NCBI GenBank assembly: GCA_030697205.1
Contig: JAUYQP010000042.1
Span: 62,001-126,000 of the forward strand
Direction: 5' to 3'
Source: Mycobacteriales bacterium
GTDB lineage: Bacteria; Actinomycetota; Actinomycetes; Mycobacteriales; SCTD01
DNA: 64,000 bases
In this document: positions 35,078 through 39,308 of the stretch, one piece after another
Position numbering within the stretch: position 1 is the first letter of the stretch
How the letters are laid out: each line of letters starts with the position of its first letter
Position numbers and translations under genes: made by a program
The notes under the pieces: model-generated
The model's database searches: none
What the model saw: only the letters and a program-made list of their open reading frames with translations
What the model was told of the DNA's origin: nothing

Positions 35078-35299
35078 CTACTTGTAGCGGTAGACGATGC
35101 GACCGCGGGTGAGGTCGTAGGGCGAGAGCTCCACGACCACGCGGTCCTCGGGGAGGATGCGGATGTAGTGCTGCCGCATCTTGCCGCTGATGTGGGCCAG
35201 GACCTTGTGGCCGTTCTGCAGCTCCACGCGGAACATCGCGTTGGGGAGCGGCTCGACGACTCGGCCCTCGATCTCGATGGCCCCGTCCTTCTTCGGCAT
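35078..35299 (-). CDS. infA: Translation initiation factor IF-1
   Basis: 73-aa OB-fold factor that binds the A site during initiation. The ATG at 35299 gives [20 protein letters not shown], matching the actinobacterial form, and the protein ends GRIVYRYK; a GTG three codons earlier is the only alternative. GGAGG is close upstream. infA normally follows map directly, but here about 3.2 kb with three other genes separates them. infA has its own promoter-like sequence 110 bp upstream. Confidence 0.98.
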
Positions 35300-35416
35300 G
35301 TCCTCCACGATCCGTCGGCTTGGTGGTGCAGATTGGTGGTGCGGGTGGAGCTGCCCGGGAGCATGGTCCGCAGCCCGGTGGGCATGCGGACACGGCGGAG
35401 CGCAGTCCGAACGGGA

Positions 35417-35570: not shown

Positions 35571-35626
35571 GATCTTCGCCTCCTTGCGGCGGGCTGAGCG
35601 TGACCGCCCGCAACACGGCGAAGATC
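35571..35626. terminator. Long hairpin 3' of the subtilase gene
   Basis: 56-bp palindrome: outer arms GATCTTCGCC and GGCGAAGATC pair exactly, inner GCGGGC/GCCCGC surround TGAGCGTGACC. It lies 31 bp past the subtilase stop and upstream of the infA promoter, so it probably insulates the cassette from the alpha operon. It shares GATC ends and the loop word GAGCGTGACC with the palindrome at 58382-58454. Confidence 0.65.
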
Positions 35627-35656: not shown

Positions 35657-36478
35657 TCAGAGGGTGGCGTTGTCGGCGAGGGCGTGCAGGACGGTCTTGA
35701 CCTGGAACGGCGTGAGCTCGGGGTGGTTGCCGAGCAGTCGCGCCACCAGCCCGGTGATGTGCGGTGCGGCGAAGGAGTTGCCGGTCGCGACCAGCCGGGA
35801 ACCGCCCCGCCAGGCGACCTCGACGTCGATGCCGGGCGCGCCGAACTCGACCGGCGGGTCGGGGTTGTAGTCGAACCGCTCCGGGTCGCGGCGGGGGTGG
35901 GAGGCGACGGACAGGACCGCGGCGTACTGGGAGGGGTACGACGCCACCGGTGCGTTGTTGACCGCGCAGACGAGGGCGACCCCGCGGAAGTAGGCCTCGT
36001 CGGCGAGGTCGTGGAACAGCCCGTGGTACTCCTCCTTCCCCGTCGACAGCGACAGGTTGACCACGCGCATGCCGTGCTCGACCGCCCAGCGCAACCCCGC
36101 GGCGAAGACCGGACCGCGGCCGGTGAGTCGGTCACCCAGCACCCGCACGCTGTGCAGCCGGCAGTCCGGCGCCAGGGACCTGACCACGCCCGCGACCGCG
36201 GTCCCGTGCCCGAACAGGTCCTCGTGCGGGCCCTCCTCGACCCGGACGAGGTCGGGCGCCGAGGCGTCGAAGGACAGCGCGACCGAGGAGGCGAGCCCGC
36301 CGATGTCGGGGTGGTCGGCCTCGACGCCGCTGTCGATGACCGCGACGTCCACGCCGGCTCCGGTGGAGGACCCGAAGGCCCACTCCCGGGTGATCCTCGC
36401 GACCAGTGGCAGGGGGGTGACCGGTCGCAGTCGCCCGGGTTCGAACTGCTCCGACCAGGCGGGCCGGAGAGCTGTCAC
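35657..36478 (-). CDS. Cytosolic S8 subtilisin-like serine peptidase
   Basis: 273-aa subtilase consisting of little more than the catalytic domain. The triad is intact: D49 in VAVIDSGVEADHPDI, H91 in LFGHGTAVAGV, S235 in ATGNSFAAPHITGL, and the oxyanion Asn lies in CAVNNAP (174-175). There is no signal peptide, propeptide or membrane anchor, unlike secreted subtilases and mycosins, so it should act in the cytoplasm. The GTG start at 36478 is seven bases after the stop of the GAF gene. It is the last gene of a three-gene cassette (Ig-like, GAF, subtilase) lying between map and infA. Target protein unknown; a sensor-controlled protease or a maturation protease are both possible. Confidence 0.87.
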   Translation of the reverse strand: MTALRPAWSEQFEPGRLRPVTPLPLVARITREWAFGSSTGAGVDVAVIDSGVEADHPDIGGLASSVALSFDASAPDLVRVEEGPHEDLFGHGTAVAGVVRSLAPDCRLHSVRVLGDRLTGRGPVFAAGLRWAVEHGMRVVNLSLSTGKEEYHGLFHDLADEAYFRGVALVCAVNNAPVASYPSQYAAVLSVASHPRRDPERFDYNPDPPVEFGAPGIDVEVAWRGGSRLVATGNSFAAPHITGLVARLLGNHPELTPFQVKTVLHALADNATL

Positions 36479-36485
36479 GGACGCG

Positions 36486-37352
36486 TCACGGTGGGGCCGT
36501 CCCCGGGTAGCCCGGGCGCCCCCGCCCCGTGCGGCCCGCGAGCCGCCCTGCCTGCTGCCGTGCCTGCCGTTGCCCTGCTGTGGCCACGAACTCGCGGACG
36601 ACCCGCACCGCGAGCCGGCGCTGCTCCGCGTCGAGCCTGCCCAGCTCGCCGAACAGCGCCGCGAGCTCGAGCAGGTCGCTCTCGGGCGGGTGGACGCGGG
36701 CGGCCGCGGCGTCGAGCACCTCGGACAGCTCGGCGTCGAGCGCGGCCGAGACCGCGAGCGCCCGCACCAGGCGTCGTCCGAAGTCGTCGAAGGCCCGCGC
36801 GCCCTCCAGAGCCAGCGCCGCCTGGTCCGCGACGAGGCCGAGCAGCTCCATGTCGGCCGAGGCCTCCGGTCGGTCCTCGCTGCGGTCCAGGACCTCCAGC
36901 ACCCCGAGCAGCCGGTCCGAGGTCGCGATGGGTGCCGCGAGGATGCTCCTCGGCGTGTAGCCGCTGCCGTCGTCGACCGGGCCGCTCCACCGCGGGTCGG
37001 AGCGCAGGTCGGACACGACGAGCGGCTGCCCGGACATCGCGACCCACCCGGCGATGCCGTGCCCCGACGGCACGCGCAATCCCTTCACGGCCTCGGCGCC
37101 AGCGCCCACGACGGTGGTGAAGACGAGCTCGGAGTCGTCCTCGGTGAGCAGGGCCAGCGAGCAGGCGGCCGCGCCGAACATCCGCATCGCGGTCGCCGTG
37201 ACGGCCTCGACGAGGTCGTCGTAGCCGCCCGGAGAGAGCACCGGGCCGAGGTCGCCCGCCAGCGCGGCCAGCCGGTCGAGCAGCGAACCCAGAGCCGGCT
37301 CACCGGTCGGGTCGACGGCCGAGCCGTCGGGGCCGCCGGGGTTGTCGGTCAT
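36486..37352 (-). CDS. GAF-domain sensor protein
   Basis: 288 aa. One GAF domain at about 40-190 (FGAAACSLALLTEDDSELVF, GIAGWVAMSGQPLVVSDLRS, LAAPIATSDRLLGVLEVLD), preceded by an acidic/Gly-rich start and followed by an alpha-helical region (about 200-265). There is no kinase, cyclase, HTH or phosphodiesterase output domain. The last ~25 residues are basic and Gly/Arg-rich (GRLAGRTGRGRPGYP). GAF domains bind small ligands or mediate dimerisation. The ATG at 37352 overlaps the stop of the Ig-like gene (ATGA) and the subtilase follows after seven bases, so it may control or scaffold the protease. Ligand unknown. Confidence 0.82.
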   Translation of the reverse strand: MTDNPGGPDGSAVDPTGEPALGSLLDRLAALAGDLGPVLSPGGYDDLVEAVTATAMRMFGAAACSLALLTEDDSELVFTTVVGAGAEAVKGLRVPSGHGIAGWVAMSGQPLVVSDLRSDPRWSGPVDDGSGYTPRSILAAPIATSDRLLGVLEVLDRSEDRPEASADMELLGLVADQAALALEGARAFDDFGRRLVRALAVSAALDAELSEVLDAAAARVHPPESDLLELAALFGELGRLDAEQRRLAVRVVREFVATAGQRQARQQAGRLAGRTGRGRPGYPGTAPP

Positions 37353-38329
37353 GACACGGTCGCGCAGGCAGCGTGCTCGGCGTCGCCGGCGTAGTCGACC
37401 CGCCACGCCTCACCGCCGAGGGCCGGGAGCCGCACCCGGGCGACGCCGTCGAGCAGCGCGACCCGCAGCGAGGACGAGGACGAGGAGAGCACGACCTCTC
37501 CGCTCGCTGTCGGCAGCGGCAGGGCGGTCACGGCGTCCACGACCGTGACGGTCACGCCGAGTTCCTGCCCGATCACGACCCGCTCGAGTGCCAGCCGGGT
37601 CTGCACCGCCGCGACGGCGACGGCCTGCGGGATAGGGGTCGAACGCGACGCGGCGTGGGAGCCATCACCGGAGTACGCCGCGACGATGCGGTGGACACCC
37701 GTGCCGAGCGCCGCGACCGGAAGGACTGCGGCACCGTCCGCGCCGAGCCGCGCAGAGCCGAGCTCACGGCCGCCGTCGAGGAACAGCACCGTGCCGGACG
37801 GAGCCCGGCTCTCCTCGCTGCTGCTGACCCGGGCGGTGAGCACGACCGTCTCCCCGGACGGGACCGGACCACGGCTGCCCGCGAGCGTGACGAGCGTCGG
37901 GTGCGCCTCGACCCGCAGCACCCGCGCGCAGGAGCTCGGAGCGCAGCGGGCGTCCCCGGAGTAGGCGACGCGCAGGACGTGCTCGCCGAGCGGCAACACC
38001 ACGGTGAGCATCGCGCGGCCGCCGGGGTCGAGCTCACCCTCGGCCAGCACCGCGCCGTGCTCCTGCGGGCTGTCGAGCTGGACGCGCACGGTCCCGGTGA
38101 CGGGTTCCTGGGCGGTGACGTCGACGACGAGCAGCGCGGACGACCCGGCGAGCAGCCGGCTGGGCGCGCTGACCCCCGTGGAGCTGGCCTGGCGGGTGTC
38201 GGTGAGCACGGACCCTCCTGTGACGGGGGGCCGTGGGTGGGATGCGAGCAGGGCGGGCGATAACCGGACAGCGTCGTCCAGGAGGTGGGCGCGCACGTCG
38301 TCGGTGCTCTCACCGTCGCCGGCGCTCAT
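37349..38329 (-). CDS. Ig-like domain repeat protein without a signal peptide
   Basis: 326 aa with three bacterial Ig-like (Big_3-type) repeats, each ending in a similar strand: VAYSGDARCAPSSC near 140, VAAYSGDGSHAAS near 235 and VDYAGDAEHAACATVS at the C-terminus. The N-terminal ~45 residues (GDGESTDDVRAHLLDDAVRL) are acidic and helical. No signal peptide or anchor is visible, which is odd because such repeats are normally extracellular. The ATG at 38329 has GGGGGAG three bases upstream, so it heads the cassette; no clear promoter was found in the 139 bp before it. Function unknown: a substrate, inhibitor or scaffold for the coupled subtilase are possibilities. Confidence 0.78.
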   Translation of the reverse strand: MSAGDGESTDDVRAHLLDDAVRLSPALLASHPRPPVTGGSVLTDTRQASSTGVSAPSRLLAGSSALLVVDVTAQEPVTGTVRVQLDSPQEHGAVLAEGELDPGGRAMLTVVLPLGEHVLRVAYSGDARCAPSSCARVLRVEAHPTLVTLAGSRGPVPSGETVVLTARVSSSEESRAPSGTVLFLDGGRELGSARLGADGAAVLPVAALGTGVHRIVAAYSGDGSHAASRSTPIPQAVAVAAVQTRLALERVVIGQELGVTVTVVDAVTALPLPTASGEVVLSSSSSSLRVALLDGVARVRLPALGGEAWRVDYAGDAEHAACATVS

Positions 38330-38440: not shown

Positions 38441-38487
38441 GCTGAATCGGTGGGTTCAGCCGGTGAGCTCAGCCGGTGAGCTCAGCC
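38441..38487. repeat. 13-bp tandem repeat and hairpin at the map stop codon
   Basis: Three 13-bp units (GGTGAGCTCAGCC at 38462-38474 and 38475-38487, and the variant GGTGGGTTCAGCC at 38449-38461) span the end of map; the map TGA lies in the middle unit. Just beyond, GCTGAA/TTCAGC (38441-38460) can form a short hairpin that may end the secY-adk-map transcript. Confidence 0.7.
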
Positions 38488-39308
38488 GGCAGGCTCGTGC
38501 CGAGCCGGACGGCTCCGCCGTCCGTGGCGGTGAGGACCCACGGGCCGTGCTCGGTGATGGCGACGGTGTGCTCCCAGTGGGAGGCCTGCAGCCCGTCCCT
38601 GGTGACGACGGTCCAGCCGTCGTCGAGCTCGAGGACCTCCGGTGAGCCGAGCGTGGCCATCGGCTCGACGGCCAGCACGATGCCGCGGGTGAGCGCCATG
38701 CCCTTGCCCGGGCCCTGGGGCGCGGTGTTGGGGACGTGCGGCGGCTCGTGCATCGAGGTGCCGATGCCGTGCCCGGTGTAGTCGTCGAGCAGGCCGTAGC
38801 CGTGGGGACGCACCACCCGCTCGACCTCGGCCCCGATGTCGGACAGCCGCGCGCCGTCGCGGACGACGGCGAGCGCGGCCCACAGGCTCTCCTCCGTGAC
38901 GCGGTTGAGCTCCAGCACATCCGCGGCGCACTCCCCGACGGGAACCGTGATCGCGGCGTCTCCGTGCCACCCCTCGACGATCGCGCCGAAGTCGATCGAG
39001 CACAGCTCGCCCTCGCGCAGCACCCGGTCTCCGGGGATCCCGTGGACGACCTGCTCGCCGACCGAGGCGCAGATGACGCCGGGGAAGCCGTGGTAGCCGA
39101 GGAAGCTCGACACCGCGCCGCGCTCGCGCAGGACGTCGCGGCCGATGCCGTCGAGGTCGGCAGTGCTGACGCCCGGCGCCACGGCTGCACGCATCCGGTC
39201 CAGCGCCTCGGCCACGACCAGGCCGGCGCGGCGCATGAGCCGGACCTGCTCAGCGGTCTTGACGGTGACGCCGCGCGGGCGGCGCGAACCGCGGCCAGCT
39301 CCAGCCAC
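38469..39308 (-). CDS. map: Methionine aminopeptidase type I
   Basis: Removes N-terminal Met from nascent proteins; 279 aa. Metal ligands are in SIDFGAIVEGWHGDAAITV (two Asp), GHGIGTSMHEPPHV (His), VLAVEPMAT (Glu) and HWEHTVAITEHG (Glu region). KTAEQVRLMRRAGLVVAEAL is the usual start of the catalytic domain. The GTG at 39308, eight bases after the adk stop, adds 15 basic residues before it. In most actinobacteria infA follows; here the Ig-like/GAF/subtilase cassette does. Confidence 0.96.
   Translation of the reverse strand: MAGAGRGSRRPRGVTVKTAEQVRLMRRAGLVVAEALDRMRAAVAPGVSTADLDGIGRDVLRERGAVSSFLGYHGFPGVICASVGEQVVHGIPGDRVLREGELCSIDFGAIVEGWHGDAAITVPVGECAADVLELNRVTEESLWAALAVVRDGARLSDIGAEVERVVRPHGYGLLDDYTGHGIGTSMHEPPHVPNTAPQGPGKGMALTRGIVLAVEPMATLGSPEVLELDDGWTVVTRDGLQASHWEHTVAITEHGPWVLTATDGGAVRLGTSLPAELTG

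Follow-up and report, generated by a model that had tools for sequence, protein, structure and literature searches.

A GAF–subtilase pair and a tag-bearing Ig-repeat protein between map and infA: a candidate cytosolic peptide-processing module

Between map and infA of an actinomycete genome lie three tightly coupled genes for an Ig-repeat protein, a GAF protein and a subtilase. Our leading reading, which we hold tentatively and with close to even confidence, is that the subtilase works in the cytosol, probably under cyclic-nucleotide gating, to process polypeptides that carry a tag, with the Ig protein as its local tagged partner. The window is the whole 64,000-nucleotide stretch analysed here, and positions refer to it unless a locus is named.

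Results

Three coupled genes at the map–infA site

All three genes are on the minus strand. The Ig-repeat gene (P0001, 37349-38329, 326 aa; from its ORF and translation) overlaps the GAF gene (P0002, 36486-37352, 288 aa; ORF and Pfam) in an ATGA, which suggests co-translation, and 7 bp separate the GAF gene from the subtilase gene (P0003, 35657-36478, 273 aa with a GTG start; ORF and Pfam). Coordinates, overlap and gap are all as an earlier note on this DNA had described them. Pfam recognizes three Big_3_5 Ig repeats (128 bits), a GAF domain (76 bits) and a Peptidase_S8 domain (84 bits). The upstream flank is map (38469-39308, minus) and the downstream flank infA (35078-35308, minus); map, adk and secY on one side and infA and ribosomal protein genes on the other make the surroundings housekeeping within the window.

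The same note had fenced the trio with a hairpin and a separate infA promoter. The inverted repeat between the subtilase gene and infA (10-bp arms at 35571-35580 and 35617-35626, strand unassigned) proved no more stable than shuffled sequences (z = -1.1), and neither a sigma-70 promoter nor an intrinsic terminator was found. With neither element significant, hairpin and promoter were dropped as cassette boundaries.

The subtilase is cytosolic and has an intact triad

The catalytic residues Asp49 (codon 36332-36334), His91 (36206-36208) and Ser235 (35774-35776), as well as Asn175 at the oxyanion hole position (35954-35956; all minus strand), are invariant in an alignment of 44 homologues, and the description of a minimal subtilase with an intact Asp-His-Ser triad thus holds. 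The model of the protein (pLDDT 93) matches the subtilisin BPN' fold. Triad, oxyanion Asn and subtilisin fold, the features by which we assign a protein to the S8 family, are all present. Members of the subtilase family start about 5 residues ahead of a conserved 'PAWS' and about 33 ahead of 'REWAWG', and ahead of this conserved N-terminus neither a signal peptide nor a classical prodomain would fit. Upstream starts of the Ig gene add no hydrophobic segment. Signal peptides are absent, as had been claimed.

The source genome (G000, 4.0 Mb) has 25 Peptidase_S8 matches, 24 of them above the family cut-off; they include a cluster on contig C52 and several on the window's own contig.

The GAF domain resembles cyclic-nucleotide-binding GAFs

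The GAF domain spans residues 45-183 (36804-37220, minus) by Pfam, PDB profile search and Foldseek. It had been called a GAF sensor without an output domain; the GAF assignment stands, but a predicted C-terminal helical region at residues ~190-275 (36528-36785, minus; AlphaFold2, mean pLDDT 85.6) had been overlooked. The best PDB match of the GAF profile was to the cyclase GAFs of 1ykd and that of the window GAF alone to Lcd1 (5w10), while the four top Foldseek matches of the GAF model were to the cAMP-bound Lcd1 GAF, again 5w10. In sequence and fold it is therefore nearest to GAFs that bind cyclic nucleotides (cNMPs). The NKFDE signature of such GAFs is kept only in part, with LDR for xNK in a partial alignment. 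Because the nearest GAFs bind cAMP or cGMP and because cNMP genes neighbour the pair in other bacteria, a cyclic nucleotide is the likely ligand, as judged from sequence and model. A ligand-gated protease, as suggested earlier, is plausible on these same grounds.

GAF and subtilase form a conserved pair

Relatives were sampled from class and phylum genome samples and from 80 named loci of a genome collection. Loci entered the sample through their resemblance to the subtilase or to the GAF, and some contigs are represented in both sets, so the counts below describe that sample only and not a random one. Genes in the related loci were called with a simple codon-usage caller written for the analysis; the calls at L184 and L185 were partly antisense and were left out of our reasoning.

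A GAF gene lies near the subtilase gene in 90 of 101 loci, the window locus included, and the phyla that bear the pair include Actinomycetota, Chloroflexota and Dormibacterota. The sequences indicate that GAF and subtilase are a conserved cytosolic pair with a history of their own. The earlier note had called for a gene-neighbourhood search, and besides these 90 loci of several phyla it turned up, in two other genera, a tagged protein next to the pair; neither a trio confined to close relatives nor a signal peptide added by revised starts, the two outcomes that the note had named as speaking against it, was found. Other neighbours of the subtilase are a cNMP-binding protein (60/101 loci), an MFS protein, mostly fused to a cNMP domain (46/101), and a class III cyclase with an AAA domain (13/101). 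No MFS/cNMP transporter gene was found in the source genome; the cNMP proteins examined there were CRP-like regulators, an ABC ATPase fusion and small proteins. The fusion (L185:8122-9537, plus strand) is an ABC transporter ATPase with a C-terminal cNMP-binding domain.

In Streptomyces-type loci the same pair stands among RiPP genes, with a radical SAM, an iron-redox enzyme and 'aroma-sacti' peptides or with ATP-grasp ligases, and the GAF–S8 pair may supply 'aroma-sacti' clusters with their protease. Loci of this kind (L092, L093 and L097, and also L069-L072, L094 and L095) combine a radical SAM, an iron-redox enzyme, short peptides, a class III cyclase, S8, GAF and sometimes an ATP-grasp. A separate observation concerns L100, titled as a Spirochaetaceae MAG, which appears to be the L056 contig of actinomycete G120; its title is probably wrong.

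Small tandem-repeat peptides accompany the pair

Near the pair we found small ORFs whose peptides repeat a core motif, (D/E)D(V/T)x(G/A)H, mostly as DDVEGH with basic residues after it. ORFs with at least two motifs (2-9 copies) occurred in 39 of 116 loci, against 0/116 reversed, 0/116 complemented and 0/41 other loci. Of 100 loci, 33 had at least one strict motif no more than 2.5 kb from the pair; the reversed and complemented controls had none. The 42 repeat peptides hold 129 motif copies, mostly 14-24 aa apart, are nearly Cys-free (1 Cys in 3667 aa) and are encoded at a median distance of 159 bp from the pair. A detectable motif peptide is thus limited to about one third of the loci. One repeat peptide that was tested had no match in Pfam or NCBIfam, and the full-text literature gave no description of the motif, of GAF with S8 in RiPPs, or of 'aroma-sacti'. 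Two contigs of the Naasia lichenicola genome (L115 and L117) carry what look like identical copies of the locus, and in each copy one repeat peptide has 9 motifs and another has 4. At four Chloroflexota loci (L113, L125, L127, L144) the encoded peptides are longer; they have a helix-like segment at the N-terminus in common, together with repeats of the EVxAH or DEAHAN type, and are possibly a second peptide family of the same module. This wider context of tagged repeat peptides and of cNMP, MFS and cyclase genes lies outside what the window, on which the earlier note was based, could show.

The Ig-repeat protein carries a tag-like motif near its N-terminus

The three Ig-like repeats of the window protein, detected with a repeat-derived profile and Pfam Big_3_5, comprise residues 53-142 (37904-38173), 146-240 (37610-37894) and 243-324 (37358-37603), all on the minus strand. 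Ahead of them a motif scan found a tag-like DDVRAH at residues 10-15 (38285-38302, minus). The same six residues occur in a repeat peptide of locus L171. The Ig protein has a single copy with no motif repeats, and its R and A fall at variable positions of the motif.

Per protein, we estimate the chance of an N-terminal match of this kind at about 2e-4 for the strict motif, rising to 2e-3 for the loose one. The neighbourhoods hold 710 proteins of at least 260 aa, and the strict motif was present within the first 40 aa of three of them, with 0.17 expected. These three are the window Ig protein and proteins of L064 and L065, and each is encoded directly beside a GAF–S8 pair. The L064 and L065 proteins, from two other genera, are tagged with DDVEAH and have weakly Ig-like C-termini, which score ~16 bits on the Ig-repeat profile and rank third and fourth among 1340 proteins. 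Pfam makes no Ig-like call on these C-termini; because of the weak profile score and the lack of Pfam recognition, their Ig identity is tentative. In a quick S8 tree the L065 and window subtilases fall within one supported set of 11. The Ig protein had been cast as a scaffold or inhibitor, but its N-terminal tag looks more like that of a substrate or partner, and from its sequence it appears to be a local candidate for a tagged partner or substrate.

No separate small repeat-peptide ORF was present in the window or in the examined loci of its own genome, and in the subset of motif-pattern DNA matches examined in the source genome most lay in antisense- or non-coding-looking ORFs. Two more proteins of the source genome (L224:8767-9627 and L269:1393-2178, both minus) share three features: an acidic N-terminus, the sequence D(D/A)VEGHGL(K/R)E or one very like it, and a hydrophobic segment. 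Within the family a DDVEGHGL protein occurs in both pair-bearing genomes and in G004 (similar proteins in G010 and G004).

The Ig gene is probably older at this site than the pair

Among the 12 family members with a readable junction, infA follows map directly in 10, in keeping with the claim that the trio interrupts a usually contiguous map–infA; the other 2 have a single Ig gene in between. These solo Big_3_5 genes of G007 and G008 (L196:768-1421 and L198:749-1390, both minus, without a signal peptide) encode 217 or 213 aa, with ~40% identity to Ig repeats 2 and 3 of the window protein. They have no motif, and neither a GAF nor a subtilase gene accompanies them. The only other family member found with a GAF–subtilase pair is G010, where the pair lies elsewhere in the genome.

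Because solo Ig genes occupy map–infA in two relatives, the Ig gene probably predates the GAF–subtilase pair there; alternatively, G007 and G008 may have lost the pair. The trio had earlier been taken for a single inserted cassette. It does lie between map and infA, but joint entry is unsupported, and since the two relatives have an Ig gene alone at this position we rejected a single-cassette insertion.

Discussion

We propose that the GAF protein, probably a cyclic-nucleotide sensor, pairs with a prodomain-less cytoplasmic subtilase and would gate it on binding a cyclic nucleotide. The subtilase would then cleave polypeptides marked by a short (D/E)D(V/T)x(G/A)H tag. Many relatives would supply these from a gene nearby as small peptides, almost free of Cys and built of 2-9 tandem repeats, often together with an MFS/cNMP transporter that could carry the cleavage products out of the cell and with cNMP-binding regulators or a class III cyclase. 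In the source genome the tagged polypeptide would be the Ig-repeat protein with DDVRAH at residues 10-15, which probably goes back to an Ig gene that the family already had at the map–infA site. The genes, the triad, the missing signal peptides, the conserved pair and its association with motif and cNMP genes were observed directly; tag recognition and cleavage, gating, the Ig protein as a substrate and product export in relatives are what we infer from them. The window locus has a GAF gene adjoining an S8 gene and a tagged polypeptide encoded within 2.5 kb, the two elements by which we recognize the module, yet it is an atypical form, with the tag on an Ig-repeat protein.

A fuller version of this proposal is possible but somewhat doubtful: a peptide-maturation system, so far undescribed, in which a cyclic-nucleotide-gated GAF–S8 recognizes the tag and cuts unmodified repeat polyproteins, an MFS/cNMP protein exports the products and, here, the protease acts on tagged Ig-like proteins, these substrates belonging to a branch that includes the source genome. 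If true, repeat peptides of several phyla, for which no Pfam or NCBIfam model was found, would be linked to a protease and, probably, to a second-messenger input and an exporter. They would become a candidate class of secreted peptides that is directly testable, and the pair would be a clear case of a cytosolic subtilase under the control of a separate GAF subunit.

It is rather unlikely, though worth serious weight, that the Ig gene has nothing to do with the pair, a GAF–subtilase module having landed downstream of an older Ig gene that matches DDVRAH by chance. The solo Ig genes at map–infA in two relatives without the pair would fit such an accident, as would the single copy of DDVRAH and the lack of an Ig-like gene at most of the Chloroflexota and Streptomyces-type loci. 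However, the ATGA overlap of the Ig and GAF genes suggests co-translation, the strict motif at residues 10-15 is present only in the map–infA Ig copy that sits with the pair, and two further loci have tagged, weakly Ig-like proteins beside it. We consider it improbable that the tagged polypeptides are regulators of the subtilase (trans-acting propeptides, inhibitors or activity switches) and not its products. They are encoded beside a subtilase that has no prodomain and may therefore depend on a partner to fold or to be inhibited; yet the arrangement of 2-9 tandem copies set apart by variable spacers resembles that of a polyprotein, the MFS/cNMP neighbours suggest export, and the tagged Ig-type proteins are long and unlike the small peptides outside the motif.

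Least probable is a stress or defence module, which the earlier note had offered as one reading; in it, host proteins would be the target of a ligand-activated protease. Peptidases and nucleotide-signal domains do co-occur in conflict systems (PMC7159879), and a PADLOC subtilase profile matches the window protein at 77 bits. But PADLOC returned only generic subtilase and IetS matches, which reflect nothing beyond the protease domain; vWA, MoxR, STAND and EAD partners were not seen, and the specific association with peptides points to a defined substrate. A defence role is thus unsupported. We return to a tag-processing protease as the preferred reading and compare it with known systems.

Comparison with known systems

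Cyclic-nucleotide GAFs (cyclase 1ykd, Lcd1 5w10 and those of PDE2/5/6/10) are the closest solved relatives of the GAF domain in sequence and fold. Unlike them, the window GAF is not fused to a cyclase, PDE or kinase, and it keeps NKFDE only in part.

FxSxx-type conflict-linked peptide systems likewise combine a small diverging precursor with a dedicated peptidase and sometimes CRP-like cNMP regulators (PMC7159879). They differ in having a metallopeptidase and not a subtilase, radical SAM/SPASM proteins, vWA-MoxR partners and FxSxx motifs. Beside the window peptidase there are no vWA-MoxR-VMAP components or EAD adaptors, the flanking genes there being housekeeping, and the neighbours at related loci are cNMP, MFS and cyclase genes. 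The window trio is not a vWA-MoxR peptidase conflict system.

Mycosin, the subtilase of type VII secretion (TIGR03921), is the second-best NCBIfam match of the window subtilase. Its 107 bits are far under the 278.75-bit cut-off, and the window protein has no signal peptide.

The 'aroma-sacti'/ATP-grasp RiPP clusters (NF045560, TIGR04187-like) have the same S8–GAF pair together with a class III cyclase/AAA protein, and EVxAH-type motifs turn up in part of their precursor-like peptides. Their precursors are not of the tandem-repeat type, however, and they include radical SAM, iron-redox or ATP-grasp genes, none of which is present at the window map–infA site; no RiPP modifying enzyme was found among the genes neighbouring the trio. 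A short motif-bearing precursor lies beside the protease in 39 of the 116 related loci, whereas the window offers one motif copy only, in an Ig protein of 326 aa.

A parallel is offered by QhpE, the cytosolic subtilisin-like leader peptidase of quinohemoprotein amine dehydrogenase, whose substrate comes from its own operon (PMC7876137). The window subtilase, likewise cytosolic, would by analogy cut a dedicated polypeptide from its own operon. QhpE (NF049966) is its best NCBIfam match by E-value, at 116.5 bits and under the 165-bit family cut-off. The window locus has no radical SAM (QhpD), flavoprotein, ABC exporter (QhpF) or QhpC substrate, and PMC7876137 describes no GAF partner for QhpE. 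The GAF–S8 module would be of the RiPP-like peptide-processing kind, with a QhpE-like cytosolic subtilase that is not QhpE by score or by operon.
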